This document shows, in pieces, positions 11,661-49,804 of a stretch of DNA of 64,000 nt. Position numbers and translations under genes: made by a program. Location: contig JANYCZ010000037.1 in NCBI GenBank assembly GCA_025360015.1, forward strand, positions 62,001 to 126,000. The letters are read 5' to 3'. Below the pieces are notes generated by a model. It saw nothing but the letters and a program-made list of their open reading frames with translations, ran no database searches and was not told the DNA's origin. This stretch comes from Verrucomicrobiota bacterium (GTDB taxonomy: Bacteria; Verrucomicrobiota; Verrucomicrobiia; Verrucomicrobiales; Verrucomicrobiaceae). Every line of letters starts with the position of its first letter. Within the stretch, counting starts at the first letter, position 1.

Positions 11661-11695
11661 GCAGCGTTGAGGGAGTTGGGGAAAAAAGAGTGCGG

Positions 11696-13324
11696 TTAAA
11701 AATCCATGCCGAGGCGGAAGAGAAGGAAGAGGTCATGCGCCAGCGCGTTCGGCTGGGTGACCAGCGGCATCGCCAGATCCACGGAGCCGGTGAGGTGGTT
11801 CAGGTAGCGGATGCGGCTGCCGAAGCCCGCGCTCGCCAGGTCGTAGCTGCGCTTCTCCGCTGGCAGCGTGTGGTTGGTGTACAGCTTGCCGCCTTCCAGG
11901 AAGGCATACACGCGCCACTGATTCTCCCGGTCCTTCGCGGAGCCGAGGAAGTTCGGACTGCGGAACTCCAGCGTGCCAAAAATCCCCGAGTCACCGAGTC
12001 GCGTGGCGATGAGATAGCCGCGCGCGTTGTTGAAGCCGCCGCCGGAAGTCTGCTCCGTATTGATCAGCGCGTCCGGCGTGGCCTGCCCCTGCGCGCGTGT
12101 GTAGATCTGAAAGCCGTTCGCCACGTCATGCGTGTGCGAGAGGTCGCCGCGGAAGTAAAAGAAACTGTCATTCGCGCTGAAGCGCCGCGCCGCAAACTGC
12201 GTCTGCGAGCCGCCCATGCCGGTGACGTGCCAGGTCAGCGCCGCGTTGAACTCCGTGTACGCCTGATCCGTCACCCGGCTCGCGCTGTAGGACAGGTTAA
12301 ACGGATAATAGGCGATGGGAGAAGATACCAGCGCGCCGCCCGCATTCACGTCCTGCACAAAATTCTTGTAGTCCATGCCGAAGCTGAAGGAGTGAAAATA
12401 GCCCTGCTTCGCCGGCAGCGTCCGCATCAGGCGAAAGCCCACGATCTGCCCTTTCCCGATCACCGTCGTGCCGCCCAGTGCCGCGATGTTGCTGTCCTGC
12501 ACCGTGCCCGTCAGCATCACGCTCAGCCCTTCCACGCTGTTCACCGGGGCCTGATAAAAGGCGGAGTACACCGCACTGTCCGTAGTCTTCTCCGGGGCGA
12601 CCTGAAAGCTGCCCCCCAGCGTGTGGCCCATCTGCCACAGGTTGCTGTAGCTCAGCGAGCCGCTCAGGCGCAGCGGCACCGTGTTCGCATTGTGCTGGTT
12701 GTTCAGCTCCAGGCTCCCGTGCAGCGGCAGCTTGTCCTCCACCTTCAGGTCGATATCCACCGTGCCCGGCACCACACCCGCGCGCAGCTCCGGCGTGATC
12801 TTCCTGTCCCGCCAGCGGTTCAGCGCCATCACGTCCTTGGAAATTTCATTGAAGTTCGGCACCGTGCCCTCCTTCATCGAAGGGGCCTGCGCCTTGATCG
12901 TGCTCGGCAGGAAATAGCGCGCCCCCTTCACCCGCAGGCGTCCCACGGGAGTTTCTACCACTTCCAGGTAGATCACACCACGATTCCCCGTCTGCTGCGG
13001 CACCTGCACACCCACGCTCTGGTAGCCCTTCGCCTTATAGACTTTCTCCAGCGCCAGCCGTGCCCCCTCAATGTCCTGCTCGCCCCGGCCCGGCCCCATG
13101 AACGGATACACCGCCTCCTCGATCTCAATGCCCTTCAGCAGATGGTTTCCGCGCACGCGGTATTCGCGCACGTAGAGATTGCCGAGCTGCGACAAAGCCG
13201 TCGGCGCAGGAGATGCCGTACTCTCAGTCGTGGTGGCCGCGTCGCACATCATGCCAAAACCCGCCCAGCACACCAGCGCGGTGGTGCTTGTTTTGAAAAT
13301 GGAGTGAAAGAATGGGGACAGCAT
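11696..13324 (-). CDS. TpsB outer-membrane transporter (ShlB/FhaC/HecB family)
   Basis: I start the 542-residue protein at ATG 13324, because the signal-like stretch FKTSTTALVCWAGFGMMCDAA follows it; an upstream in-frame start at 13438 would add an implausible leader. A POTRA-like part spans about residues 55-190 (YVREYRVRGNHLLKG, VYKAKGYQSVGVQVP, RGVIYLEVVE), with the second POTRA signature VDIDLKVEDK near 240. A barrel follows (GSLSYSNLWQMGHTLGGSFQ, GGGFNNARGYL) and the protein ends in Phe. The family exports TpsA proteins with an N-terminal TPS domain, and one lies at the other end of this gene train. It is the first gene of the train, with ExbB 35 bp downstream. Confidence 0.9.
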   Translation of the reverse strand: MLSPFFHSIFKTSTTALVCWAGFGMMCDAATTTESTASPAPTALSQLGNLYVREYRVRGNHLLKGIEIEEAVYPFMGPGRGEQDIEGARLALEKVYKAKGYQSVGVQVPQQTGNRGVIYLEVVETPVGRLRVKGARYFLPSTIKAQAPSMKEGTVPNFNEISKDVMALNRWRDRKITPELRAGVVPGTVDIDLKVEDKLPLHGSLELNNQHNANTVPLRLSGSLSYSNLWQMGHTLGGSFQVAPEKTTDSAVYSAFYQAPVNSVEGLSVMLTGTVQDSNIAALGGTTVIGKGQIVGFRLMRTLPAKQGYFHSFSFGMDYKNFVQDVNAGGALVSSPIAYYPFNLSYSASRVTDQAYTEFNAALTWHVTGMGGSQTQFAARRFSANDSFFYFRGDLSHTHDVANGFQIYTRAQGQATPDALINTEQTSGGGFNNARGYLIATRLGDSGIFGTLEFRSPNFLGSAKDRENQWRVYAFLEGGKLYTNHTLPAEKRSYDLASAGFGSRIRYLNHLTGSVDLAMPLVTQPNALAHDLFLLFRLGMDF

Positions 13325-13449
13325 TGGCGCAGATTTCAGAGCCCCTCTTTTTCGTTCGCAGCAGGACTCCCTCAAGCTGGCCGCTGTTACGAATGCGTCA
13401 CACGCCACCCACCCGCCGCACCGTGTAAGTGGGTACAACAGCTTATTAA

Positions 13450-31062: not shown

Positions 31063-31111
31063 GGGCGATGCGGGCAGTCGCTTGTTCCCAGCTTTGAAAA
31101 TTCGTTCATTT

Positions 31112-34100
31112 ATGAATCGCATCATCGCAATTTTTCGACGGAAACGGCGGCATTCCATGGCCAGCCTCTGGCGTGTGTGCGCCCTGCTCCTGCTTACGTC
31201 TGGTCATGTGACGGCGGACGTCGCCACCCATGCGCAACAGGACGCCTTGATGGCGGAGGCAGCGCGCCTCGCCCCCGCAGCGGAGGCGGTGGTGATGAGT
31301 GTCGGCACGGTTTCTCCTGCTCAATTTGCCACCATGGGAAACTGGAGCGCCGTCATTCCATGGACCCCGCACATCCCGGCGGCGGCGGCCATGATGCCGG
31401 ATGGCCGGCTGCTGACCTATGCGTCCAATCAGCGCACGTCCTTTCCTGACGGGCCGCAGTTCACGTATGTGGCCTTGTGGGACCCAGCAACGGGTCTGTT
31501 TACCGAAGTCAACAACGGCACGCATGACATGTTTTGCGGCGGCCTCTCGATTCTGCCGGACGGGCGGCTGCTGGTGAATGGCGGCAACGGCATGAACGGG
31601 ACGGTGGCGCAGTCGAGCTTGTTTGACTGGCGCACGAGTGAATGGGTGCCCGCGCAGACGATGGCCGACGGCCGCTGGTACAACTCCAGCATCGCACTGC
31701 CGAATGGCGAAGTGCTGACCGCAGGCGGCAACAGCGGCAGCAATGCCGATGGCACTATTGAGCAATGGAACGCCAGTTCGGGCTGGAGGCGCATGAGCGG
31801 CATCAACTGGGCTCCCATCTCAAATCCGCCCACCCCGAATGCGATCGAAACGAACTGGCATCCCTTCTTCCTCGTCGCGCCGGATGGCCGCGTCGCGCAC
31901 TTTGGACCGCATCAGGCGCTGGACTGGCTCACCGCCACGGGCACGGGCTCCATGACGTCCGCCGGGGCCAGCATTCCAGGCACGCATTACCCCAAGCAGG
32001 GCGCGTGGGCCATGTATGCACCCGGCAAGGTGGTGGTGGCAGGCGGACTGCAGGCCATCGACGACGGCACGGTGGTGAACAAGGCCTTCACCCTTGATCT
32101 CAATGGCCCCACGCCCGTGCTGACATCCACTGCCCCGATGGCGAATGCGCGCTCCTTTTCAAACTCCGTCATGCTGCCGAATGGCGAAGTCATGGTCGTG
32201 GGTGGCAACACCTCAGGGCAGTTCTTCAGTGACGTGGGCGCGGTGTTTACGCCTGAAATCTGGAATTCCACCACGGGGCAATGGCGCGCGGTGGCGGACA
32301 CGTCCGTGCCGCGCACCTACCACTCGCTGGCGATGCTGCTGCCTGACGGGCGCGTGTGGTCAGGTGGCGGTGGCTTGGGCGGTGCTGCATCGACAGACCA
32401 CCAGGATGCGCAGGTCTTCACCCCGCCGCAGCTTTTCAATGCGGACGGCACGGCAGCCGTGCGCCCGGTGATCACCGCAGCGCCGGATCGCATCTCCCCG
32501 GCCAGCGTCTTCACCGTGAACGCGAGTGCCAATGTGCAGTACTTCAGCGCCATCAGCATCTCCGCGCAGACGCATTCCGTCAGCACCGGCCTGCGGCACG
32601 TGCGCTTCACGCACACGAGCCCCTCGTCGGGCGTGTACGCCGTCACCGCGCCTGCGAGCATCAATGTGCTCACGCCGGGATACTGGATGATGTTTGCGGT
32701 GGATGCGAACGGCGTGTGGTCTGTCTCGCGCATCATTCAGGTCACGAATTCCACGCTGCCAGTGGTGACGAATCCGGGGCAGCAGAGCGTGAATCAAAAC
32801 ACTGTGGTGTCCCTGCCCATCAGCGCCAGCGCCACCGGCGGCACGCTGGGCTACTCCGCCAGCGGACTGCCCACGGGGCTGAGCCTGAATGCCGCCACCG
32901 GATTGATCTCCGGCACAGTGACCGCCGCACCGGGCACGTACCGCAGCACCATCCTGGTGAGCGCGGCAGGGCAGGTGACCTCCCTTTCCTTCAACTGGAT
33001 CGTGCTGCTGCCCAATCTGGGCACGGGCCAGATCATGCGTGAGTACTGGAACAATCTGGATGGCACCACGGTGGCGAGCCTGACCGACAGCCTTGTCTAT
33101 CCGGCGAATCCCAACGGGCGCGATCTGCAGCCCGCGTTTGATGCGCCGCAGAACTGGGATGACTACACCGGCCAGCGCATGCGCGGTTTCCTCTACGTGC
33201 CGGTCACCGGCCAGTATCAGTTTTTCATCTCCAGCGATGATGAGTCGAGTCTGCGGCTCAGCACCGATGCCAATCCGGCGAACGCGGTAGAGATCGCCAG
33301 TCAGGCAGGATGGACTCCGCCGGCTACCTGGACGTGGTATGCTGAGCAGACCTCGGCCGTGTTCACCTTGCAGGCCGGCAAGCGCTACTACATCGAGGCC
33401 CTGGGAAAGGATGGCAACGGTGACGACCATCTTTCCGTCGGCTGGATGAAGCCGGGAGACACGGCGGTCTCCATCATCGGCGGCACCTACCTCTCTCCCT
33501 ACCTGCCCGTGAACAATCCCGTGGTGACCTGGAGCTTTGATGAGGCAAGCTGGAACGGCACGGCGGGTGAAGTGAAAGCCCTCACGACCGGTTTGCTCGG
33601 CATCACCGGCAGCGCCGTCGGCGGCGCGATCACCACGGTGGTCAATCCGGCGCTCAGTGGCAATCCCGGCACGGGCAGCAGTGCGCAGTTCAATGGCACG
33701 ACTCAGAGCATCGTCATGCCATTCAATGCAGCGCTGAATCCCAATGACTTCACGGTCGCGGCCTGGGTGCGCAGTGATGGCGTGCCGGGCCTGTCGCGCT
33801 GCGTCATCGCCTCGCGGGATGAATCCACCGCCACCAAGAAAGGCTACGGACTGTGGGTCACGGCCGATGGCTTCTGGCAACTGCGCACCGGTGCGGATGC
33901 AGCCGGGCTGAAGGGCAGCGCCGTCAGCGTGGGACAGTGGACGCATGTGGCGGCCACCTTCCGCACCACGGGCACCAGCGGTTCCGTGCTCGCGGGGGTG
34001 CGCAGCCTTTATATCAATGGCGCACTCGTCAGCCAAGACACCGGCACCTACGTGCCAAACACCGCACTGCCCTTCGTCGTGGGTGCGGCGGACAGTCCTG

Positions 34101-37100
34101 GTACGGCCTTCTTTGCAGGCGCCGTGGATGAAGTCACGCTGCATCAGGCTCCATTGTCCCCTGGCGATATTCTGACCTTGCGCGATCTCCGCCACACCAT
34201 CAGCACGGGGGTGCAGAATCAGCCGCCTCTCATCACTAATCCGGGCGCGCAAAGCTCGCTCATCGGCGCGGCGGTGTCGCTGCCCGTCAGCGCGACCGAT
34301 CCTGAAAACAACCCCATCACCTACAGCGCCACCGGTTTGCCCGTTGGCCTTTCGATCTCCGCAAGCGCCGGAGTCATCTCCGGTATGGTGACAGTTTCAG
34401 GCACCTACACCGTCACCCTCAAAGCCAGCGACGGCATCAGCACACCCGCCACCGCTGCCTTCACCTGGACTGTCGTCAGCGGGCTGACGCTGCAGCCCTT
34501 CACCGCCGCGCCGAAGGCGAACGGCAGTGCGCTCAGCTTCACCGCGCAGGCGAGCAACGGCATCAATCCACGCTACAAATGGAACTTTGGCGATGGCACG
34601 CCCGAAACCGCCTGGCTCACCACCACGGCCATCTCCCACACCTATGCCGGACCGGGGCGTTACCTCGTCACGCTCACGGCCACCGATGACACGGGCATCA
34701 CTATCACCAGCACCTTTTATCAGGCCGTGTATGCCGCGCTGACCACGCTCAAGCCCGCCGCCTCCAGCAGCATCGTCTATGAGCATCCCGCCACCGGCAA
34801 TGACCGCGTGTGGTGCGTGAATCCCGACAACAACAGCGTGACTGCTTTCGATACAGTCAGTCGTGCACGCTATGCCGAGATCACCGTGGGCAGCGCGCCG
34901 CGCAGCCTGGCCCTGGCACCGGACGGCAGGCTGTGGGTGACGAATGTGGACACGGGCACGATCAGCATCATCAACACCACCACGCGTGCCGTCGCCGCCA
35001 CCGTAACTCTCGCGTATGGCTCACGCCCCTTTGGCATTGTCTTTGATCCTGCGGCCACTGCCGCCTGGGTGGCGCTGGAGAGCACCGGCAAAGTCCTGAA
35101 GCTGAACCCCAGCACCGGCGCGCAACTTGCCTCGGTGGATGCAGGCGGCCCGGTGCGCCATCTTTCCATCTCTGCTGACAGCGCGCGCGTGTATGCTACG
35201 CGGTTCATCACGCCGCGTGTGCCGGGTGAAAACACCGCCACGCCGGTGCTCACGGGCACAGGCGGTCAGGTGGTCGTCATCGGCACCACGGCGCTTGCCG
35301 TTGAGCGCACGATCTTGCTCAATCCCAGCACCGCAGCAGACACCTCCACCTCCGCGCGTGGTCTGCCAAACTACCTCGGTGCGCCCGTCATCTCTCCCGA
35401 TGGCCTCTCCGCGTGGGTGCCATCCAAGCAGGACAACATCCAGCGCGGCACCTTCCGCGATGGCCTGCCCCTGAACCATGAAAACACCGTGCGCGCCATC
35501 GCATCGCGCCTGGACCTCACCGCGCAGGCCGAGCACCTGCCGTCCCGCGTGGACTTTGACAACGCGGGCATGCCAAGCGCCGCCGCTTACGATCCATGGG
35601 GCATCTACGTCTTCACCGCGCTGGAGGCCAGCCGTGCGGTCGCCATTGTGGATGCGTGGTCGCGCAATGAAATCATCCGCTTCCCCGCAGGGCGCGCGCC
35701 GCAGGGCGTCGTCGTCTCGCCGGACGGCAACACGTTGTATGTGCAGAACTTCATGGACCGCAGCATCACCGTGCATGACGTCAGCGGCATCGCGCAGGGT
35801 GGCGGCACCGCGCCGACCACCACGGCCACGCTGAACACCGTGACCACGGAAAAACTCACCGCTCAGGTGCTGCAAGGGAAGCAGCTCTTCTACGATGCGC
35901 AGGATCCACGTCTGGCGCTGCAGCAGTACATCAGTTGCGCCATCTGCCACAACGACGCCGGGCATGACGGCCGCGTGTGGGATCTGACGAATTTTGGCGA
36001 AGGCCTGCGCAACACCATCACGCTGAAAGGCCATGCCAGCCAGGGCATGCTGCACTGGTCGGGGAACTTTGATGAAGTGCAGGACTTTGAAGGCCAGATC
36101 CGCAGCCTCGCAGGCGGCACTGGCCTCATGACGGACACGCAGTTCAGCACCGGCACGCGCAACCAGCCGCTGGGCGATCCCAAGGCAGGCGTGAGCGCGG
36201 ATCTCGATGCGCTGGCCGCTTATGTGAAATCTCTCACCACCACCGGCAACAGCCCGAACCGCACCACCGCTGGCGCGCTCAGCACCACCGCTGCTGCAGG
36301 CCAGCAGATCTTCCGCGCGCAAAACTGCGCCTCCTGCCACAGCGGTACCGGCTTTACGAACAGCGCGCTGAATGTCTTTGCGGACATCGGCACGCTCAAG
36401 CCCTCCAGCGGCCAGCGCCTCGGTGCTGCGCTCACCGGTTTGGATGTGCCCACCCTGCGCGGCACCTGGGCCACGGGCCCGTATTTGCACGACGGCTCCG
36501 CCACCACGCTGTCTGACGCCATCACCGCGCACAAAGGCGTGACGCTGACGGCCTCGGACCTGTCCTACCTCGCCGCGTTTGTGGGCAGCCTTGATGATGC
36601 ACCCACCACCGCGCCGCTGCCTTTCACGCTCGCGCTCACCACACCCATTACCAACGTGAGCACCACGTTTACCGTCACGGCTACGTTCAGTTCCGCCGCG
36701 TCCGGCTTCACACTCAGCGACCTCGTTGTCACCAATGGCACCGCCTCTGGCTTCAGCGGCAGCGGCACCACCTACACCTTCACAGTGAAGCCCACCACCA
36801 CCGGGGCCGTCACCATCAGCGTGCCCGCCAGCGCCGCGACTGACAGCACCAGCCTGGGCAATTCCCTCTCAAACCTGCTCAGCGTGAACTACGGCGTGGC
36901 AGACATCACGCCGCCCACCGTGGCGCTCACCACTTCGGCCACCAGCGTCGGAGTTCCCTTTGTAGTCACCGCCACTTTCAGTGAAGCGATCACCGGCTTG
37001 CTCGCCACGCAGTTCACCGTGACCAATGGCAGCGTTACTTCGCTGTCTTCCGCAGGGGTGGTGTCGTCTGCCACCATCACTCCCACCGCTGCGGGTGCAG

Positions 37101-40100
37101 TGACGGTGAAACTTCCTGCTGGCATGGTGCAGGATCTCGCGGGGAATTTAAACACCGTGTCCAACACGCTGACCGTCACCTACGCGCCGGTGGTCATCGG
37201 GCAGACCGTTCGAATCCAGGCGGAGGATTTTGACAATGGCGGGGAAGGGGTGGCCTACCATGACACCGACACCGCGAACCAGGGGCAGCTTTCCTCCGGC
37301 CTGGTGTATCGAGACTCCGCAGTGGACATCGAACCCTCCGAAGACACGGACAGCACGCCCTCCGTCGGCTGGATCGCCGCCGGTGAATGGCTGCGCTACA
37401 CCACCACGCTGCCAGCGGGGACTTACAACTTCAATGCGCGCATGGCCACCGTGCTGGCCGGGCCCTACCGCATGAATGTGCTCATCAACGGCACGCTGGC
37501 CACCACGCTCAACATCACTGCCAGCGGCGGCTGGAACACCTGGAAGACCTTTTCCGCCACCGGCCTCACCGTGCCCGCCGCTGCGGTGGTGCGCATCGAG
37601 TTTCCCGATGGCAACGTCAACTTCAACTGGATGGAGTTCGTCAACACCTCCAGTACACCCGACACCACGCCGCCGACCGTGGCTCTCACCACTCCGGCCG
37701 CCAGTGTGTCCGCGCCCTTCGTGGTCACGAGCACTTTCAGCGAAGCTGTCACGGGTGTGGCGCTGACTGATTTCACCGTCACCAACGGCGTCGCTTCAAG
37801 TCTGAGCGGCAGCGGCGCAGCTTACAGCATTCTCGTCACACCCACGGCCAATGGCGCAGTCACAGTAGCCATGCCCGCAGGCGCAGCGCTGGACGCCGCT
37901 AGCAATGCGAGCGTGATGTCGAATACTCTCAGTGTGACCTACACCGCGCCAATGCCCGCGCCCACCGTGCTGCTCAGCACCGCCACCTCCAGTGTGGCGG
38001 GAGCCTTCACCGTGAATGCGGTCTTCAGTCAATCGGTCACCGGCGTGGCGCTGAATGATTTCATCATCACCAATGGAGCAGCTTCCGCGCTCAGCGGCAG
38101 CGGAGCCACCTACAGCATCCTCGTCACACCCATGGCAGCCGGCGCTGTCACCGTCAGCGTGCCCGCGAGTGCCGCGACGAATGCCACCGGTGGTGCCAAC
38201 ACTGTGTCCAATTTGCTTGCGGCGACTTACACGCCTCTCGATACCACGCCGCCGACGGTCGTGCTTTCCACGCCGACGAACAGCGTGAGCGCGCCCTTTG
38301 TCGTCACGGCCACCTTCAGCGAAGTCGTCACCGGCGTCTCGCTGAACAGCTTCACGGTTGGCAATGGCTTGGCTTCAGCCCTGAGCGGCAGCGGCACGTC
38401 CTACAGCATCACCATCACACCTGCGCTCAGCGGCGCAATCACGGTGACGATGCCCGTGGGTGCGGCGTTTGATGCCGCCAGCAATGTGAGCCTGGCTTCG
38501 AACACTTTGAGCGTGAGCTACACCGCGCTGCTGGCACCTGCACCCACGGTGCTGCTCAGCACCCCCTCGGCCAGTGTGACGGGCACCTTCACGGTGAATG
38601 CGGTCTTCAGCCAGTGGGTGACCGGGGTGACGGTGAATGGTTTCACGGTCACCAATGGCACGCTGTCAGCACTCAGCGGTGGCGGCACGACTTACAGCAT
38701 CCTGGTCACCCCCAAGTCGGCTGGTCCTGTCACCCTCAGCATGCCCGCCGGCGCTGCTACGGGCACGGGCGGCGTGGCCAGCATTGCTTCGAATCTGCTC
38801 ACGGTCACTTACACGCCTCTCGACACCACGCCGCCGACGGTCGCCCTCACCACGTCGACCAGCAGCGTCAGCGCTCCCTTTGTCGTCACGGCTACTTGGA
38901 GTGAAGTCGTCACCGGCGTCGCGTTGAATGATTTCACCGTCACTAATGGCCTCGCTTCCGCCCTGAGCGGCAGCGGCACTGTTTACAGTGTGAGCATCAC
39001 GCCGACGGCCAATGGCGCAGTCACGGTGACCATGCCTGCGGGTGCTGCTATCGATGCCGCCAGCAACGCGAGTCTGGTCTCGAACACCTTGAGCGTGACT
39101 TACACCGCACCCGCCGCCCCCACGGTGCTTCTAAGTACTGCCTCGACCAGTGTGACAGGCGCATTCACGGTCAATGCGGTCTTCAGCCAGTCCGTCACCG
39201 GGGTGGCCTTGAATGATTTCGCCATCACCAAAGGCACGGCCTCCGCCCTCACCGGCAGTGGCACTACCTACAGCATCCTCGTCACGCCCACGGCGGCGGG
39301 TGCGGTCACCCTCAGCATGCCTGCGGGTGCCGCCATCAATGCGACCAGTGTCGCCAGCGCTGCGTCCAATCTGCTCACGGTCACTTACACGGTGCCGGAC
39401 ACCACGCCGCCGACGGTGGTGCTCTCCACTTCAGCCGCCAGCGTCGCCGCGCCTTTTGTCGTCACCGCCACCTTCAGTGAAAGTGTCACCGGCCTGCTCG
39501 CTTCCGGATTCGCTGTGACTAACGGCACTGTCACCGCCCTGTCTTCCACCGGTGTGGTATGGTCCGCCACCGTCACGCCCACGGCGGCGGGGAATGTCAC
39601 CGTCAGCCTGCCTGCGGGCGCGGCACAGGATCTCGCGGGCAATAAGAGCCTCGTGTCGAATCTCATCACCGTGAGCTACGCGCCTGTGGTCGTCACCAAT
39701 GGTCTCACCGGCGACTACTACATTGGCAAAAACTTCGATCAGTTCAGCTTCACCCGCACGGAATCCACGCTCGACTTCACCTGGGGCACGGGCAGTCCTG
39801 ATCCGCGCATTCCTGCCGATGGCTTCAGCGTGCGCTGGCGCGGCTACGTCACCCCGCGCTATACGGAGACGTACGACATCATCTCCGTGACCGATGACGG
39901 CGTGCGTCTCTGGGTGAATGGCCAGCTGGTCGTCAATGACTGGAACGACCACGGCGAATCCTGGGACAACGGCACCATCACGCTGCAGGCCGGTGTGACC
40001 GTCAGCATCGTCATGGAGTACTATGAAAACACCGGCGGTGCCACCGCGCGCCTGCTGTGGGAAAGCCCCAGCCAGCTCCGCGAAGTGATCCCTACGAGCC

Positions 40101-41491
40101 GCTGGCTCGTCAATGCACCCGCTGCGGCTCCTGCTGCGTTGCAAAACAGCGTCACGCTCACTTCCATCATTCCCGTCACCATGCCTCTCGCCACGACCCC
40201 GAGCGATGACGATGGCGTGCCCGACCTCGTTGAAACCGCAATCGGCACCTCGCTAACCAGTGGCATCAACCACCCCGGAGCGGGCCTGCAGATCGTCACG
40301 CGCAGTAACAACAGTGTCGATGCCACGCTGCTGCGTCCTTCCGGTCAAAGCGGTGTCACCTTCACCCTCGAAAGCAGCAGCGATCTCATCAACTGGTCCC
40401 CGCTCGGCGTGACACCCGCCGTGGCCGATCAAGGCAGCGGCTGGGAACTCGTCACCTGGTCAAACCTCCATGCCCTCACCGGTCAAAGCCTCGCGCATGG
40501 CATCGTCCGCCTGCGTGTCACGCAAGGCGGCAACAGCGCCACCACCACGCCCGTGGGCTGGCAGCAGACCACGCTCACTACCGGCACGCAGAGCTACGGC
40601 CTCAATCTATCCAGCGCGGATCTCTTCACCGGCAGCATCGTCGCTGCCGATGCCACGGGCATCACTCTCAGCGAGCAGGCCGCGCTGGCCTCTGCCATGG
40701 ACCCCGCGCAGCATTACTACCTCGAAGTCATCAGCGGCCCACAGGCCGGGCATCGTCTCGATGTGCAGAGCACCACCAGCACCGCCTGCATCATCGCCGC
40801 AGACTCACCGAATACCACGCTCGCCGCCGCCAATGTCACCAGCTTGACCGGAGCCCGCGTCAGCCTGCGTGCTCATCGCACCCTCGGCAGTGTCTTTGAC
40901 CCCGCCCGCTTCCAGGGCTCCACCGTCGCCACCAGTGCCGATCAAGTCCTCTTCTACACCTCCACAGGTTACAACACCTGCTGGCTCTATGCCCTCGGCA
41001 ATACGCGCAACTGGGTGCTGAGCGACGGCACACTCGCCAGTGTGAATGATACCCCCATCCCACCCGGCACCGGCGTCATGCTTCAAATCGCCAGCACCAC
41101 GCCCGCGCCTCTGCTCACCACCGGCAGCGTGCGCACCACGCCCTTTGCCCGTCCGTTGCAGACCGGCTACAATCTCTTTGCCAATCCCTGGCCGCTCGAT
41201 ACCACACCCGCGCAGGCCTGCCTCACCACCCCCGCCCTCGTCGCCAGCACCGCTTTCTCCAGTGCCGATCAGTTGCAGCTCTGGAAAGGCGACACCACCG
41301 CCGGTGCGAGTGGCTACGCCGGTTACTGGCTCTTCCAGATGCCCGGCCAGCTCACCCCCATCTGGATCTCCACAGGCGATGCCACGCTGCTCTCACGCAA
41401 CACCACGACCCTTCTCCGTGCAGGCCGAGCCACGTTCATCAAAGCGCAGGCAAAGCCGAATCGTGCGGTGTGGGTGATTCCGCCGCCATGA
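31112..41491 (+). CDS. giant secreted copper-radical oxidase / dihaem cytochrome c / adhesin-like fusion
   Basis: The 3459-residue protein starts at ATG 31112 (ATG 31157 possible), with an Arg-rich leader and signal core ending near GHVTA. Order: galactose/glyoxal-oxidase-like seven-bladed domain with DUF1929-like end (about 75-545), with the cofactor residues in place: Cys142 (MFCGG), Tyr190 (RWYNS), Tyr403-His404 (RTYHS), His488 (QTHSVST); putative-Ig; PA14 (about 640-790); LamG (about 800-1030); cadherin/putative-Ig; PKD (about 1130-1205); YVTN-type propeller (about 1210-1575); cytochrome c region with CAICH at 1609 and CASCH at 1739; two Ig-like domains; CBM6-like (about 2033-2180); seven Ig-like domains; PA14 (about 2865-3010); C-terminal domain resembling TIGR02597. 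It is probably surface-bound or released. Haem attachment would need the c-type cytochrome machinery. Substrate is unknown. Confidence 0.88.
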   Translation: MNRIIAIFRRKRRHSMASLWRVCALLLLTSGHVTADVATHAQQDALMAEAARLAPAAEAVVMSVGTVSPAQFATMGNWSAVIPWTPHIPAAAAMMPDGRLLTYASNQRTSFPDGPQFTYVALWDPATGLFTEVNNGTHDMFCGGLSILPDGRLLVNGGNGMNGTVAQSSLFDWRTSEWVPAQTMADGRWYNSSIALPNGEVLTAGGNSGSNADGTIEQWNASSGWRRMSGINWAPISNPPTPNAIETNWHPFFLVAPDGRVAHFGPHQALDWLTATGTGSMTSAGASIPGTHYPKQGAWAMYAPGKVVVAGGLQAIDDGTVVNKAFTLDLNGPTPVLTSTAPMANARSFSNSVMLPNGEVMVVGGNTSGQFFSDVGAVFTPEIWNSTTGQWRAVADTSVPRTYHSLAMLLPDGRVWSGGGGLGGAASTDHQDAQVFTPPQLFNADGTAAVRPVITAAPDRISPASVFTVNASANVQYFSAISISAQTHSVSTGLRHVRFTHTSPSSGVYAVTAPASINVLTPGYWMMFAVDANGVWSVSRIIQVTNSTLPVVTNPGQQSVNQNTVVSLPISASATGGTLGYSASGLPTGLSLNAATGLISGTVTAAPGTYRSTILVSAAGQVTSLSFNWIVLLPNLGTGQIMREYWNNLDGTTVASLTDSLVYPANPNGRDLQPAFDAPQNWDDYTGQRMRGFLYVPVTGQYQFFISSDDESSLRLSTDANPANAVEIASQAGWTPPATWTWYAEQTSAVFTLQAGKRYYIEALGKDGNGDDHLSVGWMKPGDTAVSIIGGTYLSPYLPVNNPVVTWSFDEASWNGTAGEVKALTTGLLGITGSAVGGAITTVVNPALSGNPGTGSSAQFNGTTQSIVMPFNAALNPNDFTVAAWVRSDGVPGLSRCVIASRDESTATKKGYGLWVTADGFWQLRTGADAAGLKGSAVSVGQWTHVAATFRTTGTSGSVLAGVRSLYINGALVSQDTGTYVPNTALPFVVGAADSPGTAFFAGAVDEVTLHQAPLSPGDILTLRDLRHTISTGVQNQPPLITNPGAQSSLIGAAVSLPVSATDPENNPITYSATGLPVGLSISASAGVISGMVTVSGTYTVTLKASDGISTPATAAFTWTVVSGLTLQPFTAAPKANGSALSFTAQASNGINPRYKWNFGDGTPETAWLTTTAISHTYAGPGRYLVTLTATDDTGITITSTFYQAVYAALTTLKPAASSSIVYEHPATGNDRVWCVNPDNNSVTAFDTVSRARYAEITVGSAPRSLALAPDGRLWVTNVDTGTISIINTTTRAVAATVTLAYGSRPFGIVFDPAATAAWVALESTGKVLKLNPSTGAQLASVDAGGPVRHLSISADSARVYATRFITPRVPGENTATPVLTGTGGQVVVIGTTALAVERTILLNPSTAADTSTSARGLPNYLGAPVISPDGLSAWVPSKQDNIQRGTFRDGLPLNHENTVRAIASRLDLTAQAEHLPSRVDFDNAGMPSAAAYDPWGIYVFTALEASRAVAIVDAWSRNEIIRFPAGRAPQGVVVSPDGNTLYVQNFMDRSITVHDVSGIAQGGGTAPTTTATLNTVTTEKLTAQVLQGKQLFYDAQDPRLALQQYISCAICHNDAGHDGRVWDLTNFGEGLRNTITLKGHASQGMLHWSGNFDEVQDFEGQIRSLAGGTGLMTDTQFSTGTRNQPLGDPKAGVSADLDALAAYVKSLTTTGNSPNRTTAGALSTTAAAGQQIFRAQNCASCHSGTGFTNSALNVFADIGTLKPSSGQRLGAALTGLDVPTLRGTWATGPYLHDGSATTLSDAITAHKGVTLTASDLSYLAAFVGSLDDAPTTAPLPFTLALTTPITNVSTTFTVTATFSSAASGFTLSDLVVTNGTASGFSGSGTTYTFTVKPTTTGAVTISVPASAATDSTSLGNSLSNLLSVNYGVADITPPTVALTTSATSVGVPFVVTATFSEAITGLLATQFTVTNGSVTSLSSAGVVSSATITPTAAGAVTVKLPAGMVQDLAGNLNTVSNTLTVTYAPVVIGQTVRIQAEDFDNGGEGVAYHDTDTANQGQLSSGLVYRDSAVDIEPSEDTDSTPSVGWIAAGEWLRYTTTLPAGTYNFNARMATVLAGPYRMNVLINGTLATTLNITASGGWNTWKTFSATGLTVPAAAVVRIEFPDGNVNFNWMEFVNTSSTPDTTPPTVALTTPAASVSAPFVVTSTFSEAVTGVALTDFTVTNGVASSLSGSGAAYSILVTPTANGAVTVAMPAGAALDAASNASVMSNTLSVTYTAPMPAPTVLLSTATSSVAGAFTVNAVFSQSVTGVALNDFIITNGAASALSGSGATYSILVTPMAAGAVTVSVPASAATNATGGANTVSNLLAATYTPLDTTPPTVVLSTPTNSVSAPFVVTATFSEVVTGVSLNSFTVGNGLASALSGSGTSYSITITPALSGAITVTMPVGAAFDAASNVSLASNTLSVSYTALLAPAPTVLLSTPSASVTGTFTVNAVFSQWVTGVTVNGFTVTNGTLSALSGGGTTYSILVTPKSAGPVTLSMPAGAATGTGGVASIASNLLTVTYTPLDTTPPTVALTTSTSSVSAPFVVTATWSEVVTGVALNDFTVTNGLASALSGSGTVYSVSITPTANGAVTVTMPAGAAIDAASNASLVSNTLSVTYTAPAAPTVLLSTASTSVTGAFTVNAVFSQSVTGVALNDFAITKGTASALTGSGTTYSILVTPTAAGAVTLSMPAGAAINATSVASAASNLLTVTYTVPDTTPPTVVLSTSAASVAAPFVVTATFSESVTGLLASGFAVTNGTVTALSSTGVVWSATVTPTAAGNVTVSLPAGAAQDLAGNKSLVSNLITVSYAPVVVTNGLTGDYYIGKNFDQFSFTRTESTLDFTWGTGSPDPRIPADGFSVRWRGYVTPRYTETYDIISVTDDGVRLWVNGQLVVNDWNDHGESWDNGTITLQAGVTVSIVMEYYENTGGATARLLWESPSQLREVIPTSRWLVNAPAAAPAALQNSVTLTSIIPVTMPLATTPSDDDGVPDLVETAIGTSLTSGINHPGAGLQIVTRSNNSVDATLLRPSGQSGVTFTLESSSDLINWSPLGVTPAVADQGSGWELVTWSNLHALTGQSLAHGIVRLRVTQGGNSATTTPVGWQQTTLTTGTQSYGLNLSSADLFTGSIVAADATGITLSEQAALASAMDPAQHYYLEVISGPQAGHRLDVQSTTSTACIIAADSPNTTLAAANVTSLTGARVSLRAHRTLGSVFDPARFQGSTVATSADQVLFYTSTGYNTCWLYALGNTRNWVLSDGTLASVNDTPIPPGTGVMLQIASTTPAPLLTTGSVRTTPFARPLQTGYNLFANPWPLDTTPAQACLTTPALVASTAFSSADQLQLWKGDTTAGASGYAGYWLFQMPGQLTPIWISTGDATLLSRNTTTLLRAGRATFIKAQAKPNRAVWVIPPP
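37661..39690 (+). repeat. alternating A-B Ig-like domain repeats within the giant gene
   Basis: Seven Ig-like domains alternate in two types: A starts DTTPPTV and contains SAPFVVTATFSE; B starts APTVLLST and contains TGAFTVNAVFSQ. A units begin near 37661, 38240, 38822 and 39399, a period of about 579 bp, i.e. one A-B dimer of 193 codons. Nucleotide similarity between dimers is high, pointing to recent duplication of the dimer rather than of single domains. Confidence 0.85.
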
Positions 41492-41659: not shown

Positions 41660-42988
41660 TCACTCCCGCAACGCAGGCGGCCGATGGCTTTGGATCTGTG
41701 CTTTGAAATCCCCGAGGCTGTTCCAATGCGCAGGCTCATTCAGATCTACTTCGGTGATGGCCAGGGTGCCGAACTCTTTGGCTTGCGCGAGCACATCCCC
41801 ATAGTGATCGAAGATGCCGGAGATCATCCACTGGTTCTTGGTGGCGTCGGTGTAGGTGCTGCTGACGATATAGACATGGTTCTCGCACGCACGCGCCGCA
41901 GCGAGCATCGGATTGCAGCCCCACACCGGCCACGCGATAACTTCGGCACCTTTGATCGTGAGAGCCCGGGCGACTTCAGGGAAGAAGCCGTCGTAGCAGA
42001 CCATCATGCCCACTTTGCCAAAACGGGTGTCGAACACCGGGTAGTCATGCCCTGGCGTGATGCCCGCCTCGATCTCGCCACGCGGCAGCGTGACCTTGCG
42101 ATACTTGCCCACCAGAGCGCCATCCGGGCCAAGCAGCGCGGCGGTGTTGTAGAGCGTCTTGCCCTCGCGCTCGACGAGGCCGGCGACGATGTAGAGTGCA
42201 TGCTCCTTCGCCAGCCTGCCAAAGTACTCGGTGCTGGGGCCGGGTACCGTCTCCGCGCATTGAGCCATTGTCTTGCCGGTGCCGTAGTAGGTGAGGGTCT
42301 CGCCGAGCACGACGAGGTCGGCCTTCTGCTGCGCGGCGGTGGCGATGAGCGGCGCATACTGCGGCGGTTTGTCAGCGGGGTTCTTGCCGTCCTTCGGCTG
42401 GAGATGAATCGTGGCGAGCCTGACCTTGCGCGGGGCAGGGGCTGGCACAGCGGCGAGTGAGACCTCGCTCCACTCCACACGCGCGTTCGGGGCCCATTGA
42501 AGATACAGCTCGATCTTCGCCTGCCGCGCCTTCACCGGCGCACGCAGGGTGCTTTCGCAGTGCGTCCACTGATTGGCTTCACCGTCCGGCATATGGGGGT
42601 ATTCAGGCTCTGCACGTGGGATGGAACCTTTGGCGTAGCCTTGCTTGGCAGGCTCCTCCCACGTCACCGTCTTCCCATTTTCATCCTGCCACAAGATGCG
42701 TGCATACACACTGCGGCGCGCTGTCGGCATGGCGCTCGCTTTTTTCCACGCGCTAAACTGGAAATGCTTTCCGCCCTCGACCGGCACTATGCGCGTCCAG
42801 CAGCCGATCCACTGCTCCCCCGCGCCGGTTTCGAGAATGAGGGAGCCTTGGCCATCATGCCCGCCGGTCTTGCTCACCTCCGCATCCGGCTTCGCCTCAT
42901 CCCGCGGAGACCACAGAGACCAGTCTTCAGAGAACGCCGCATGGGAAGCCGTGGCGAGGAGGCAGAGGAGGACGGTGAAGGATTTCAT
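41660..42988 (-). CDS. secreted nitrilase-superfamily amidohydrolase
   Basis: The 442-residue protein has a signal peptide ([18 protein letters not shown]). Residues about 20-185 form a beta-rich binding domain ([42 protein letters not shown]), like carbohydrate-binding modules. The C-terminal domain (about 188-440) is a carbon-nitrogen hydrolase with the full catalytic triad: Glu230 (VLGETL), Lys298 ([11 protein letters not shown]) and Cys331 ([11 protein letters not shown]). It should cleave an amide or nitrile outside the cytoplasm. An exported enzyme of this normally cytoplasmic family fused to a binding module is notable. It converges with the giant gene; the 168 bp between stops hold nothing clear. 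Confidence 0.9.
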
Positions 42989-46117: not shown

Positions 46118-46320
46118 GATCAGGGGAAAGGCTGGTGGTGGGATCGGGGAAATAGACAATACCTGACACAACGTGCCAGTGGCGAGATCATTGTATAAAA
46201 TTGTGGGATGCTGCTGCAGAGGCGGGATGTCATGCCAGTCATGATCCTTTGTTCACATTTAATGGCAAGAATAGTCAAGGTCCTGCGTTTTCGCGGCTGG
46301 ATCCCCCCTCCACCCCCTTC

Positions 46321-48477
46321 ATGAAAGACCTCCGCCTCCTCCTCGCATGCCTGCTTGCCTCCGCCACGCTGCAAGCTGCTCCTTTGCCGGAAAGCCAGAA
46401 GATCGACCAGCTCCTCAGCCAGGACTGGGCGAAGGCCGGTCTGAAGCCGAACCCGCCTGCCAGCGACGAGGTGCTGGTGCGCCGTCTCTATCTCGACCTC
46501 GCCGGACGCATCCCCACGATTGAAGAAGCCAAGGCCTACACCACCTCGCAGGATTCGCAGAAGCGCGCCAAGCTCATCGACGCCTTGCTGGCCTCGGACG
46601 GCTACACCAGCCACATGTTCAACTACTGGGCCGATGTGCTGCGCCTCACCGACAACGTGAAAGGCCGCATCACCGCCGAGGCCTACGAGGAGTGGCTCAA
46701 AAAGCAGCTCAAGGAGAACACGCCCTATGACAAGTTTGTGAAAAACCTCCTCACCACCGACGGCGGCGTGTGGGACAGCGGCAGCATCGGCTTCTGGCAG
46801 CGGGACGAAAACAAGCTCGACCACCTCGCCTACACCGTGCAGGTCTTTCTGGGCACCAGCATCGTCTGCGCCCAGTGCCACAACCACCCCTTCGACAAGT
46901 GGTCGCAGATGGACTACTATCACATGGCCGCCTTCACGTACGGCATGGACACCAAGAGCCGTGGCGTCGATCTCAATCCGAAAAAGCCTGAAATCGACAA
47001 GAAAGTCCTCCAGGCCATGAGCGGCGCGGAGAAAAAAGCCTACCGGGAGAAGTATCAGGCAGAGAGAAAAGCTGAGGAAGCCAAGGTCAACCGAGAGGAC
47101 ATGCAGCAGGTCAAGCGTGCCATGCAGGACGTCATGAAGCCGCTGCGCTACACCAGCGCCGAGTGGCAGGATGGCAAGCTCCCCAGCCTCCCCTCCGACT
47201 ACAAATACCCTGACGCCAAGCCCGGCGAGAAGGTCGAGGCGAAGACCCTCTTTGGCAAAGATGCCGTGATCAAGCCCGGTGAAAACCGCCTTGATGCCTT
47301 CGCCGACTGGATGACCAGCCCGGAGAATCCGCGCTTCACCGCCGTCATCGCCAATCGCATGTGGAAGAAAGCCTTCGGCGTCGGCTTGATCGAGCCCGTC
47401 GATGAACTGACCGACAGCACCGTCGCCAGCAATCCGGCGCTGATGGACTACCTCGGCCAGCTCATGATCGAGAAGCAATACTCGCTCAAATCCTTCCTGC
47501 GGATTCTTTACAATACGGACACCTACCAGCGTGCCGCCACCACACAGGAAGTCCCCCTCGGCGAGACCTACCACTTCACCGGACCCATCCTGCGCCGTAT
47601 GAGCGCCGAGCAGATCTGGGACTCCTTTGTCACGCTCTCCAAGGGCAACGTGGACGACACCGTGGATGACGAGAACGCCCGCCTGCACCACTATCTCGAC
47701 GATCTCTCCATGTTCCTCGGCACCGTCAAATCCAAAGGCGCGGAAGGCCTGGTACAGATCGCCAAGGAGGGCCGGGCCAAGCTGAATGCAAATCAAAAGC
47801 AGATCGACGCGCTGAAGGCCAAACTCGAGTCCGACAAAAAGAAAGGCATCGACACCACCGCCGCCACCAAAGCACTCGCCAAAGAAGCCAGCACGCTGCG
47901 CAAAGCTTCCGAGAAGGACATTCTCGTGGCCCTGCTCGGCAAAGACCGCGCGGATGATCTGCGCCAGGGCTATCACCCCGAAAAGCCTGACAAGGAGAAG
48001 CGCCCTGAGATCGACCGCAAGACACTCGAAAACATGACCAAGGAGCAGCGCAAGGAATTCGTGAAAGCCTACCAGCGCGGCAGCAGCCGCAAGGACGGCC
48101 TGGGCCTCACCTCCCGCGCCTCCGAGCAGCCCAGCCCCGCACGCCCCGGCACCTTTCTGCGCACCTTTGGCCAGAGCGATCGCGAGCTCATCCAAAACGC
48201 CAGCGACGACGCCTCCGTGCCGCAGGCCCTCACGCTGCTCAACGGCCCTGCTGCGGATGTGATCAACAACCCCGCTTCCAAATTGAATCAAGCCATCGCG
48301 CAGGCCGGCTCCCCCGCGCTGAAGATTAACACCCTTTATCAGGCGCTCCTCAGCCGCGCCCCCACGGCCGGAGAGCAGGCCATCCTCGACACCGTCATCA
48401 AGGAGCGCGGAGACAAAGCCGTGGACGATGTCACCCACGCGCTCATCACCGGCTCGCAGTTCCTCTTCGTCCAATAA
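46321..48477 (+). CDS. DUF1549/DUF1553 protein (planctomycete-type cytochrome-like)
   Basis: The 718-residue protein starts at ATG 46321, with a signal peptide (LRLLLACLLASATLQAAPL). DUF1549 (about 25-230) has VLVRRLYLDLAGRIPT and a single haem-like CAQCHNHPFDKW at 183. A charged insertion follows (about 235-310), and then DUF1553 (about 325-710) with FADWMTSPENPRFTAVIANRMWK, YNTDTYQR and the terminal THALITGSQFLFVQ signature. These proteins are hallmarks of planctomycetes and verrucomicrobia and are usually paired with DUF1501, as here. A role in polysaccharide breakdown is often proposed, but the reaction is not established. No sulfatase or glycosidase is nearby. Confidence 0.93.
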   Translation: MKDLRLLLACLLASATLQAAPLPESQKIDQLLSQDWAKAGLKPNPPASDEVLVRRLYLDLAGRIPTIEEAKAYTTSQDSQKRAKLIDALLASDGYTSHMFNYWADVLRLTDNVKGRITAEAYEEWLKKQLKENTPYDKFVKNLLTTDGGVWDSGSIGFWQRDENKLDHLAYTVQVFLGTSIVCAQCHNHPFDKWSQMDYYHMAAFTYGMDTKSRGVDLNPKKPEIDKKVLQAMSGAEKKAYREKYQAERKAEEAKVNREDMQQVKRAMQDVMKPLRYTSAEWQDGKLPSLPSDYKYPDAKPGEKVEAKTLFGKDAVIKPGENRLDAFADWMTSPENPRFTAVIANRMWKKAFGVGLIEPVDELTDSTVASNPALMDYLGQLMIEKQYSLKSFLRILYNTDTYQRAATTQEVPLGETYHFTGPILRRMSAEQIWDSFVTLSKGNVDDTVDDENARLHHYLDDLSMFLGTVKSKGAEGLVQIAKEGRAKLNANQKQIDALKAKLESDKKKGIDTTAATKALAKEASTLRKASEKDILVALLGKDRADDLRQGYHPEKPDKEKRPEIDRKTLENMTKEQRKEFVKAYQRGSSRKDGLGLTSRASEQPSPARPGTFLRTFGQSDRELIQNASDDASVPQALTLLNGPAADVINNPASKLNQAIAQAGSPALKINTLYQALLSRAPTAGEQAILDTVIKERGDKAVDDVTHALITGSQFLFVQ

Positions 48478-48508
48478 TCCTCACGCCCCATCCTCATGCC
48501 CCATCCTC

Positions 48509-49804
48509 ATGAAAGACCTCCTCAATTCCTGTGACGATGTCACCCGCCGTGACTTTGCCAAAACCATCGCCAAGACCTGCCTTGGCGTCTCGGTGATGAG
48601 CGCCCTGTCGCCGCGCGCCTTTGCCGCGTTCGAAGGCTCCAGCAAGGCCAAGCAGGCCGCCACGGCCAAGCGCGTCATCTACCTCTACATGTCCGGCGGC
48701 ATGACGCACCTAGACACTTTTGGCTGCGTGCCCGGCGCGGACACCATGGGCGGCACCAAGACCATCCCCACCAGCGCGGAAGGCGTGCAGATCGGCGAGC
48801 TTCTGCCGCACACCGCGAAGATGATGCATCGCGGTGCCATCATCAATTCGCTCTCTTCCTCCCAGGGCGCGCATGCGCAGGGGAACTACTATCAGCATAC
48901 CAGCTACACCATGCGCGGTGCCACGCGCCATCCTACCATGGGCGCGTGGATGCAGAAGTTTCAGGGCAAGGGCAATGCCGATCTCCCCGGCTCCGTCATC
49001 ATCACCAGCGACAGCAAGCACCCCGGCGGTGGTTTCTTCGAGGCCGCCTGCCAGCCGCTCGTCCTCAATGATCCCGCCCGTGGCCTGCAAAACAGCCGCC
49101 GCCCCGGCTCACTCAGCGAAGGCGACTTCGACTACCGCCTCGGCCTCTCCGCCAAGCTCGACCAAGGCTTCCAGCAGGCCTACAACTACAAGAACGTCAA
49201 AGCCTACGCCGACGTCTATAAGGATGCCATCCAGGTGATGAAGAGCGAAGACCTCGACGCCTTTGACCTCAGCAAGGAATCCGCCGAAACGCATGCCGAA
49301 TATGGCGATGGCAACTTCGCCCAGGGTTGCCTCCTCGCCCGCCGCCTCATCGAGCACGGCGTCCGCTTTGTGGAAGTGAATCTCGGCGGCTGGGATATGC
49401 ACCAGGACATCGGTGCCCGCCTGCCCGAACGCTGCGGCGATCTCGACCGCGCCCTCGGCACACTTCTCACCGATCTCCAGCGTCGCGGCCTGCTGGACGA
49501 CACCCTCGTCGTCCTCACCTCCGAATTTGGCCGCACTCCCAAGATCAATCAAAACGACGGCCGCGACCACTACCCGAAAGCCTTCAGCTCCGTCCTCTGG
49601 GGCGGCGGCATCGCCGGTGGCCAGGTCTATGGCAAGACCGACAAAGGCATCGAGGTCACCGAAAACAAAGTCAGCGTCCCCGACTTCAACGCCACCATCG
49701 CCTACGCCCTCGGCCTCCCGCTCGACCTCGTGCTGTATTCGGGCACAAAGCGTCCTTTCACCGTGACCGACAAGGGGCAGCCCCTCACTAGCTTGTTTGG
49801 GTAA
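48509..49804 (+). CDS. Tat-exported DUF1501 protein
   Basis: ATG 48509 (431 residues) lies 31 bp after the DUF1549/DUF1553 stop. The N-terminus has a twin-arginine signal (VTRRDFAKTIAKTCLG, Arg13-Arg14, then SVMSALSPRAFA), so the protein is folded before export. The body is a sulfatase/alkaline-phosphatase-like fold: YLYMSGGMTHLDTFGC, LLPHTAKMMHRGAII, then TSEFGRTP, GRDHYPKAFS and GGIAGGQVYGKTD. It is the standard partner of the preceding gene, and the two probably act together in the periplasm. Substrate unknown. Confidence 0.93.
   Translation: MKDLLNSCDDVTRRDFAKTIAKTCLGVSVMSALSPRAFAAFEGSSKAKQAATAKRVIYLYMSGGMTHLDTFGCVPGADTMGGTKTIPTSAEGVQIGELLPHTAKMMHRGAIINSLSSSQGAHAQGNYYQHTSYTMRGATRHPTMGAWMQKFQGKGNADLPGSVIITSDSKHPGGGFFEAACQPLVLNDPARGLQNSRRPGSLSEGDFDYRLGLSAKLDQGFQQAYNYKNVKAYADVYKDAIQVMKSEDLDAFDLSKESAETHAEYGDGNFAQGCLLARRLIEHGVRFVEVNLGGWDMHQDIGARLPERCGDLDRALGTLLTDLQRRGLLDDTLVVLTSEFGRTPKINQNDGRDHYPKAFSSVLWGGGIAGGQVYGKTDKGIEVTENKVSVPDFNATIAYALGLPLDLVLYSGTKRPFTVTDKGQPLTSLFG

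Follow-up and report, generated by a model that had tools for sequence, protein, structure and literature searches.

A copper-radical oxidase and a di-haem CCP/MauG-superfamily domain in one predicted secreted polypeptide of Verrucomicrobiota

Translation of the plus strand from 31112 to 41491 of the window (the whole 64,000-nucleotide stretch of DNA that was analyzed) gave a single stop-free frame of 3459 amino acids. The frame runs uninterrupted through an oxidase, a propeller, and two haem sites, as the first-pass annotation of this DNA had claimed. The first start in the list of open reading frames was a TTG at 31082. Orthologues begin with MNRI/MKRV and continue into a hydrophobic stretch that resembles a signal, which makes use of the TTG less likely, and the ATG at 31112 was favored. 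The claim that the protein is secreted also held up, in that inspection of the sequence predicted a signal-like hydrophobic N-terminus that is kept in the orthologues. The gene stands alone, with a divergent topoisomerase-A gene upstream and a convergent nitrilase-type gene downstream, and this order was kept in orthologous loci. No operon partner was found at the locus, no electron acceptor or outer-surface redox partner was found in the gene neighborhood, and scanning for promoters and terminators gave nothing above chance. A carbon-nitrogen hydrolase with an N-terminal CBM_4_9-like domain (window 41663-42988, minus strand) is conserved directly 3' of the fusion gene.

Searches with Pfam and NCBIfam profiles gave the domain order Glyoxal_oxid_N plus GO-like_E_set, He_PIG, PA14/GLEYA, Laminin_G_3, PKD, and YVTN, followed by CCP_MauG/cytochrome c, nine Big_12 repeats with a CBM6/35 domain, a second PA14, and a conserved C-terminus (Table 1). 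A polysaccharide target, proposed earlier from the PA14, LamG, and CBM6-like modules, is only suggested, because the binding modules vary among relatives and sequence cannot reveal the substrate. The C-terminal 430 residues may be a surface or secretion module. They are 31-34% identical to the ends of two giant frames of the same genome, of 7969 and 10895 residues (G000:C26:43089-44186 and G000:C33:69683-70789), a C-terminal module that these very large proteins have in common.

Table 1. Features of the fusion gene, with coordinates in the window
Feature	Coordinates	Strand	Basis
Whole gene, 3459 aa plus stop	31112..41491	+	Conserved ATG; orthologues at same syntenic place across genus
Signal peptide, residues about 1-35, cleavage near HVTA/DV	31112..31216	+	Sequence inspection; hydrophobic N-terminus kept in orthologues
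Copper-radical oxidase (AA5/galactose-oxidase fold), residues 60-550, E-set 451-544	31289..32761	+	Profiles, phmmer, AlphaFold model
Cys142, thioether partner of radical tyrosine	31535..31537	+	49/49
Tyr190, radical tyrosine (= Tyr272, Fusarium enzyme); Trp189 just before it in this family	31679..31681	+	Alignment
Tyr403-His404, copper ligands (= Tyr495, His496)	32318..32323	+	Alignment
His488, copper ligand (= His581)	32573..32575	+	Alignment
Linker: He_PIG (550-631), PA14/GLEYA (about 640-830), Laminin_G_3 (861-1020)	32759..34171	+	Variable among relatives
PKD, directly N-terminal of propeller	34511..34714	+	Found in nearly all fused relatives
YVTN/YncE-type beta-propeller, residues 1205-1570	34724..35821	+	Profile matches; well modelled in predicted structure
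Di-haem CCP/MauG-superfamily domain, residues 1571-1840	35822..36631	+	PF03150 and PDB matches
Haem 1 site CAICH (1609-1613)	35936..35950	+	51/51 invariant
His1648-Trp1649; Trp aligns with bCCP inter-haem Trp	36053..36058	+	Alignment, conservation
Haem 2 site CASCH (1739-1743)	36326..36340	+	51/51 invariant
His1807, aligned with MauG Tyr294 and the bCCP Met; probably the sixth ligand of haem 2	36530..36532	+	Alignment, conservation
Ig-like Big_12 repeats	36632..39661	+	Profile matches
CBM6/CBM35, residues 2067-2177, among Big_12 repeats	37310-37642	+	Profile match
Second PA14, residues 2863-2994	39698..40093	+	Profile match
Conserved C-terminal 430 residues	40199..41488	+	Common to paralogue and two giant ORFs of own genome

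Residues 74-544 matched solved galactose oxidases over their full length (best phmmer match 1e-95, to 9g8h). An AlphaFold model of the oxidase part, made with 13 sequences in the alignment, had a pTM of 0.86; when aligned to 9g43 it gave a Z of 46.8 and an rmsd of 2.5 Å over 462 residues, and it contained the Kelch propeller and C-terminal E-set of the AA5 (galactose-oxidase) fold. Domain search and structure prediction, which the first-pass annotation had proposed as a check, thus confirmed the fold of this part. The cofactor residues that it listed (C142, Y190, Y403, H404, and H488) were correctly numbered and all present, and they were unchanged in 49 of 49 oxidase sequences, fused or unfused. 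The stacking Trp290 of galactose 6-oxidase (in GGSW) was not found; the aligned position, 208, is Ser here and mostly Gly in fused relatives. Among the aligned oxidases, Trp at this position occurred only in the plasmid fusion described below (L113) and in unfused plasmid oxidases. The substrate of the oxidase need not be galactose. The galactose oxidases 9g43 and 9g8h of Pseudoarthrobacter siccitolerans have the fold and all of the copper and radical residues in common with this protein, with 38% identity over the oxidase domain, whereas the Verrucomicrobiota fusions carry in addition a di-haem domain, a residue other than Trp at the Trp290 position, and an extra Trp before the radical Tyr.

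Downstream of the propeller, two CxxCH sites were found where the first-pass annotation had placed a two-haem cytochrome c; the class, however, is that of the di-haem CCP/MauG proteins and not of a generic cytochrome c. The score with PF03150 (CCP_MauG) was 32.8 bits, above the curated cut-off of 25.6; the PDB matches were bCCPs and MauG, and MbnH-family and MauG profile models also matched. CAICH and CASCH are the sole CxxCH motifs in the whole protein (about 0.0004 expected from composition) and lie 130 residues apart, a spacing of 125-130 being found in all 41 fused proteins. The arrangement is that of CCP_MauG, with two CxxCH motifs, one per domain, plus the inter-haem Trp. This Trp (W1649) is invariant, and the PYLHDG motif is conserved. 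The same genome encodes cytochrome c assembly proteins. Modelling of the di-haem part gave a poor model, and the haem ligands were assigned by sequence alone.

His1807 aligned without gaps with MauG chain position 294, the site of the MauG Tyr ligand to haem 2. The top-scoring MauG chain for the di-haem domain was 3orv, which we take to be the Y294H variant of MauG. In bCCPs the corresponding haem ligand is Met (PMC6405878, PMC10094543). This protein therefore has neither the Tyr294 of MauG nor the Met sixth ligand of the electron-transfer haem of canonical bCCPs. Because His1807 occupies that ligand position, haem 2 is probably bis-His. Loss of the Met/His second ligands, which the first-pass annotation had said would count against its proposal, was not seen, since His1807 is a candidate ligand for haem 2. 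At haem 1, the residue preceding the inter-haem Trp lines the peroxidatic cavity in NgBCCP (Phe97; PMC10094543); the residue here is an invariant His, H1648, which could close haem 1 as a sixth ligand. In bCCP and MauG the peroxidatic haem has a canonical Gln at Trp+10 and a canonical Glu at Trp+20 (PMC10094543, PMC6405878). Both were absent at the aligned positions: ungapped counting led to F1659 and G1669, and no acid was present at the aligned Glu, although this loop could not be aligned with certainty. Near these sites H1648, E1655, and D1658 are invariant and E1660 is nearly invariant.

The set of homologues came from 56 relatives, from 388 genomes of the phylum, and from 296 of the phylum to which the Rhodothermota hit belongs, with further members from a scan of genome contigs and from plasmids. 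Every homologue with a contig long enough to cover it, 41 in all, had the order oxidase, propeller, di-haem domain; these proteins belong to Verrucomicrobiota, Rhodothermota, and a plasmid of Comamonadaceae. The survey for proteins with both domains, proposed in the first-pass annotation, thus showed the fusion to be present in relatives. The oxidase-to-propeller distance varied from 182 to 968 residues among these 41 proteins, and the intervening modules differed. A PF09118 profile search of 378 Verrucomicrobiota genomes gave nine matches in eight genomes, each within a long fusion frame; no unfused AA5-type protein was found among these sampled genomes. The genome studied here (Verrucomicrobiaceae, close to Prosthecobacter) has a second copy of the fusion (G000:C17, L028), a short paralogue in which the stretch from oxidase to di-haem domain measures about 1300 residues. 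One truly separate oxidase, L087 of G602, was divergent (31% identity). The C-terminus of the Rhodothermota homologue (L027) resembles, by eye, a type IX secretion sorting signal, in agreement with an extracellular location; most close homologues of the window protein have another ending in common, GRATFIK...W(I/V)(I/V)P.

Many of the assemblies come from metagenomes and are in fragments, and an assembly error joining two genes had been named in the first-pass annotation as a possible explanation of the fusion. The chance of such a chimera is negligible, because dozens of genomes, each assembled separately, carry the same fusion, as does a plasmid whose record is complete. The seemingly unfused members of this oxidase subfamily stop at contig edges: L040, L058, L061, L085, and L086 run off a contig end, and L078 is incomplete, lying at the start of its contig. 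Complementary halves of the fusion were found in G024 and G032.

L113, a protein of 1737 residues encoded on the Comamonadaceae plasmid CP099607, has the order oxidase, F5/8C, He_PIG, PKD, YNCE propeller, di-haem domain, F5/8C. In the di-haem domain it has 66% identity to the window protein (the next plasmid match was 33%), and this domain nests in the tree among the fused di-haem domains of Verrucomicrobiota. Its oxidase is only 38% identical to that of the window protein and grouped, with full support, with unfused proteobacterial and actinobacterial oxidases; monophyly of all fused oxidases was rejected by the AU test (p-AU 9.6e-10). Because the oxidase is of a different lineage and the di-haem domain is nested, this one plasmid record indicates that the oxidase/di-haem pair was built at least twice, or that another oxidase took the place of the first while the haem partner was kept. 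Both scenarios imply selection for the pair. A SCO1/SenC gene closely follows the plasmid fusion gene (L113: 12502-13074), and another lies beside an unfused AA5 oxidase (L115: 5760-6404). The presence of SCO1/SenC beside both fused and unfused AA5 oxidases suggests dedicated copper delivery.

Ten YVTN/di-haem proteins from Verrucomicrobiota relatives (L098-L107) carry LVIVD or other N-terminal propellers and no oxidase, and form a second family of propeller/di-haem fusions. They have the same YVTN/di-haem module as the window protein, with 48-56% identity in the di-haem part, and they retain the two haem sites along with H1648, W1649, and D1658; in contrast to the fusions, they have a residue other than His at position 1807. 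His was present at 1807 in 41 of 41 oxidase-linked di-haem domains and in none of the 10 sister domains; L060, which has lost its oxidase part at a contig end, was counted as a fusion. A single clade of fused di-haem domains was not rejected (p-AU 0.28). His1807 could therefore reflect a single evolutionary change, which would still connect the ligand of haem 2 with the oxidase partner.

Several known systems resemble parts of this protein. The bCCPs, MauG, BthA, and MbnH have in common with it two CxxCH motifs about 130 residues apart, the inter-haem Trp, and a PYxHDG motif; they differ in having Met or Tyr where His is the probable ligand of haem 2, in having the distal Gln/Glu that is missing here at the aligned positions, and in lacking the fused propeller and oxidase. 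The hydrazine synthase beta-gamma protein also has a propeller followed by a di-haem MauG-like domain, and its haem gamma-II, the electron-entry haem of gamma, is bis-His (PMC12607021), as is probable for haem 2 here. The hydrazine synthase models gave weak scores of 49-63 bits relative to cut-offs of 625-1250 (62.8 vs 1250 for NCBIfam), well below membership, no alpha subunit was found here, and the partner is different. The tandem copper-radical alcohol oxidase and peroxidase of the fungi Colletotrichum and Magnaporthe (PMC9770985) also pair a copper-radical oxidase with a haem partner of peroxidase type. The fungal pair, however, consists of two adjacent genes with a class II haem peroxidase, whereas here a single chain includes a c-type di-haem domain, from a family unrelated to that peroxidase.

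The two halves probably work together, given that three phyla have kept the pairing and that it was assembled two or more times (or had its oxidase exchanged). The reading that we prefer, in a judgment that is evenly balanced, is that the tethered di-haem domain is a peroxide-linked, built-in activator of the oxidase, a peroxide sink for it, or both, within an extracellular two-enzyme polypeptide. The AA5 domain, for which fold and cofactor residues were established above, would oxidize an alcohol or aldehyde and reduce O2 to H2O2. The di-haem domain would then react with H2O2 at haem 1. Haem 2 (probably bis-His) and the conserved Trp between the haems would carry electrons to haem 1, and the source of these electrons would be the copper-tyrosine site or some other donor. 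One electron drawn from the copper-tyrosine site would convert resting Cu(II)-Tyr to the active Cu(II)-Tyr radical, and repeated turnovers would convert peroxide to water. The carbohydrate-binding, PA14, LamG, and Ig modules may anchor the pair at a surface or polymer. Full activity of copper-radical oxidases in vitro depends on a one-electron oxidant and calls for a peroxidase; in the fungal pair, one-electron oxidation by the peroxidase activates the oxidase, which makes this peroxidase a known natural activator (PMC9770985). A peroxide-linked role is the more conservative reading, because the CCP/MauG family reacts with H2O2 and the fungal oxidase/peroxidase pair is known (PMC9770985). It is consistent with the complete copper site, the CCP/MauG membership, the conserved inter-haem Trp, CxxCH, and PYLHDG motifs, the cytochrome c assembly proteins of the genome, the order fixed in 41 of 41 proteins, the lack of unfused AA5 proteins among the 378 Verrucomicrobiota genomes, the recurrence in an unrelated oxidase lineage beside SCO1/SenC, and the restriction of His1807 to oxidase-linked domains. 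Speaking against it are the missing Gln/Glu at the aligned positions, the poor model of the di-haem part, the possible closing of haem 1 by H1648, and the sister YVTN/di-haem domains in oxidase-free proteins, from which it follows that the module has uses of its own.

It is doubtful that the copper-radical enzyme passes substrate electrons directly to the tethered di-haem domain, and from there to an outside acceptor or to its own peroxide (O2 to water overall). The first-pass annotation had proposed electron transfer to haem in place of peroxide production alone. A reading in which the haems are solely a relay, the reduced copper site giving two electrons to two haems and these to an external acceptor, would make the protein a dehydrogenase and not (only) an oxidase, in likeness to the cytochrome-linked dehydrogenases. 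The two haems would match a two-electron half reaction, haem 2 is probably bis-His, as is the haem by which electrons enter hydrazine synthase gamma (PMC12607021), the canonical peroxidase residues are absent at the aligned positions, and His1807 is limited to oxidase-linked domains. We nevertheless consider such a relay unlikely, because family membership points to peroxide chemistry, the neighborhood offers no acceptor or outer-surface redox partner, and a variable linker of 182-968 residues enforces no fixed distance between copper and haem. A long flexible linker is easier to reconcile with peroxide diffusion or transient docking than with a rigid electron wire.

The occurrence of the haem module with other N-terminal propellers in the sister proteins bears on two further explanations. 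In one, the module is an independent enzyme of MauG/MbnH or lignin-peroxidase type that uses the peroxide of the oxidase on another protein or polymer bound by the modules. The MauG superfamily assignment, with its MbnH-family and MauG model matches, and the many binding domains are in keeping with such an enzyme; replacement of the MauG Tyr ligand by His and the lack of a dedicated partner gene, the neighbors being the topoisomerase-A and nitrilase-type genes, make it decidedly unlikely. In the other, the oxidase and di-haem domains are functionally separate passengers, brought together by domain shuffling in giant secreted modular surface proteins, and the free variation of the neighboring modules would be expected. 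This explanation is very unlikely, because all sampled AA5-type matches of Verrucomicrobiota lie in fusions, the order is fixed in 41 of 41 proteins while the linkers vary, a second assembly involves another oxidase lineage, and the ligand state of haem 2 tracks the oxidase.

The architecture, known here from its sequence, is real, conserved, and built of known domains; no description of the oxidase/di-haem fusion was found in the literature searched, which covered few subscription journals and preprints. The presence of an oxidase and a haem partner in one chain would make the natural activation or protection of copper-radical oxidases directly testable. If electrons do move from copper to haem, this would be a new working mode for copper-radical oxidases, likewise without description in that literature, and relevant to biocatalysis, where peroxidase and catalase are added today.

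Two other gene groups in the window were noted. One is a gene pair encoding a PSCyt2/PSD1 (DUF1549/DUF1553) protein and a DUF1501 protein (46201-49801, plus strand). The other, at 9798-13438 on the minus strand, combines an ExbB-type protein, which carries DUF2341 and LamG domains, with an adjacent transporter of the ShlB/FhaC type that has a POTRA domain.
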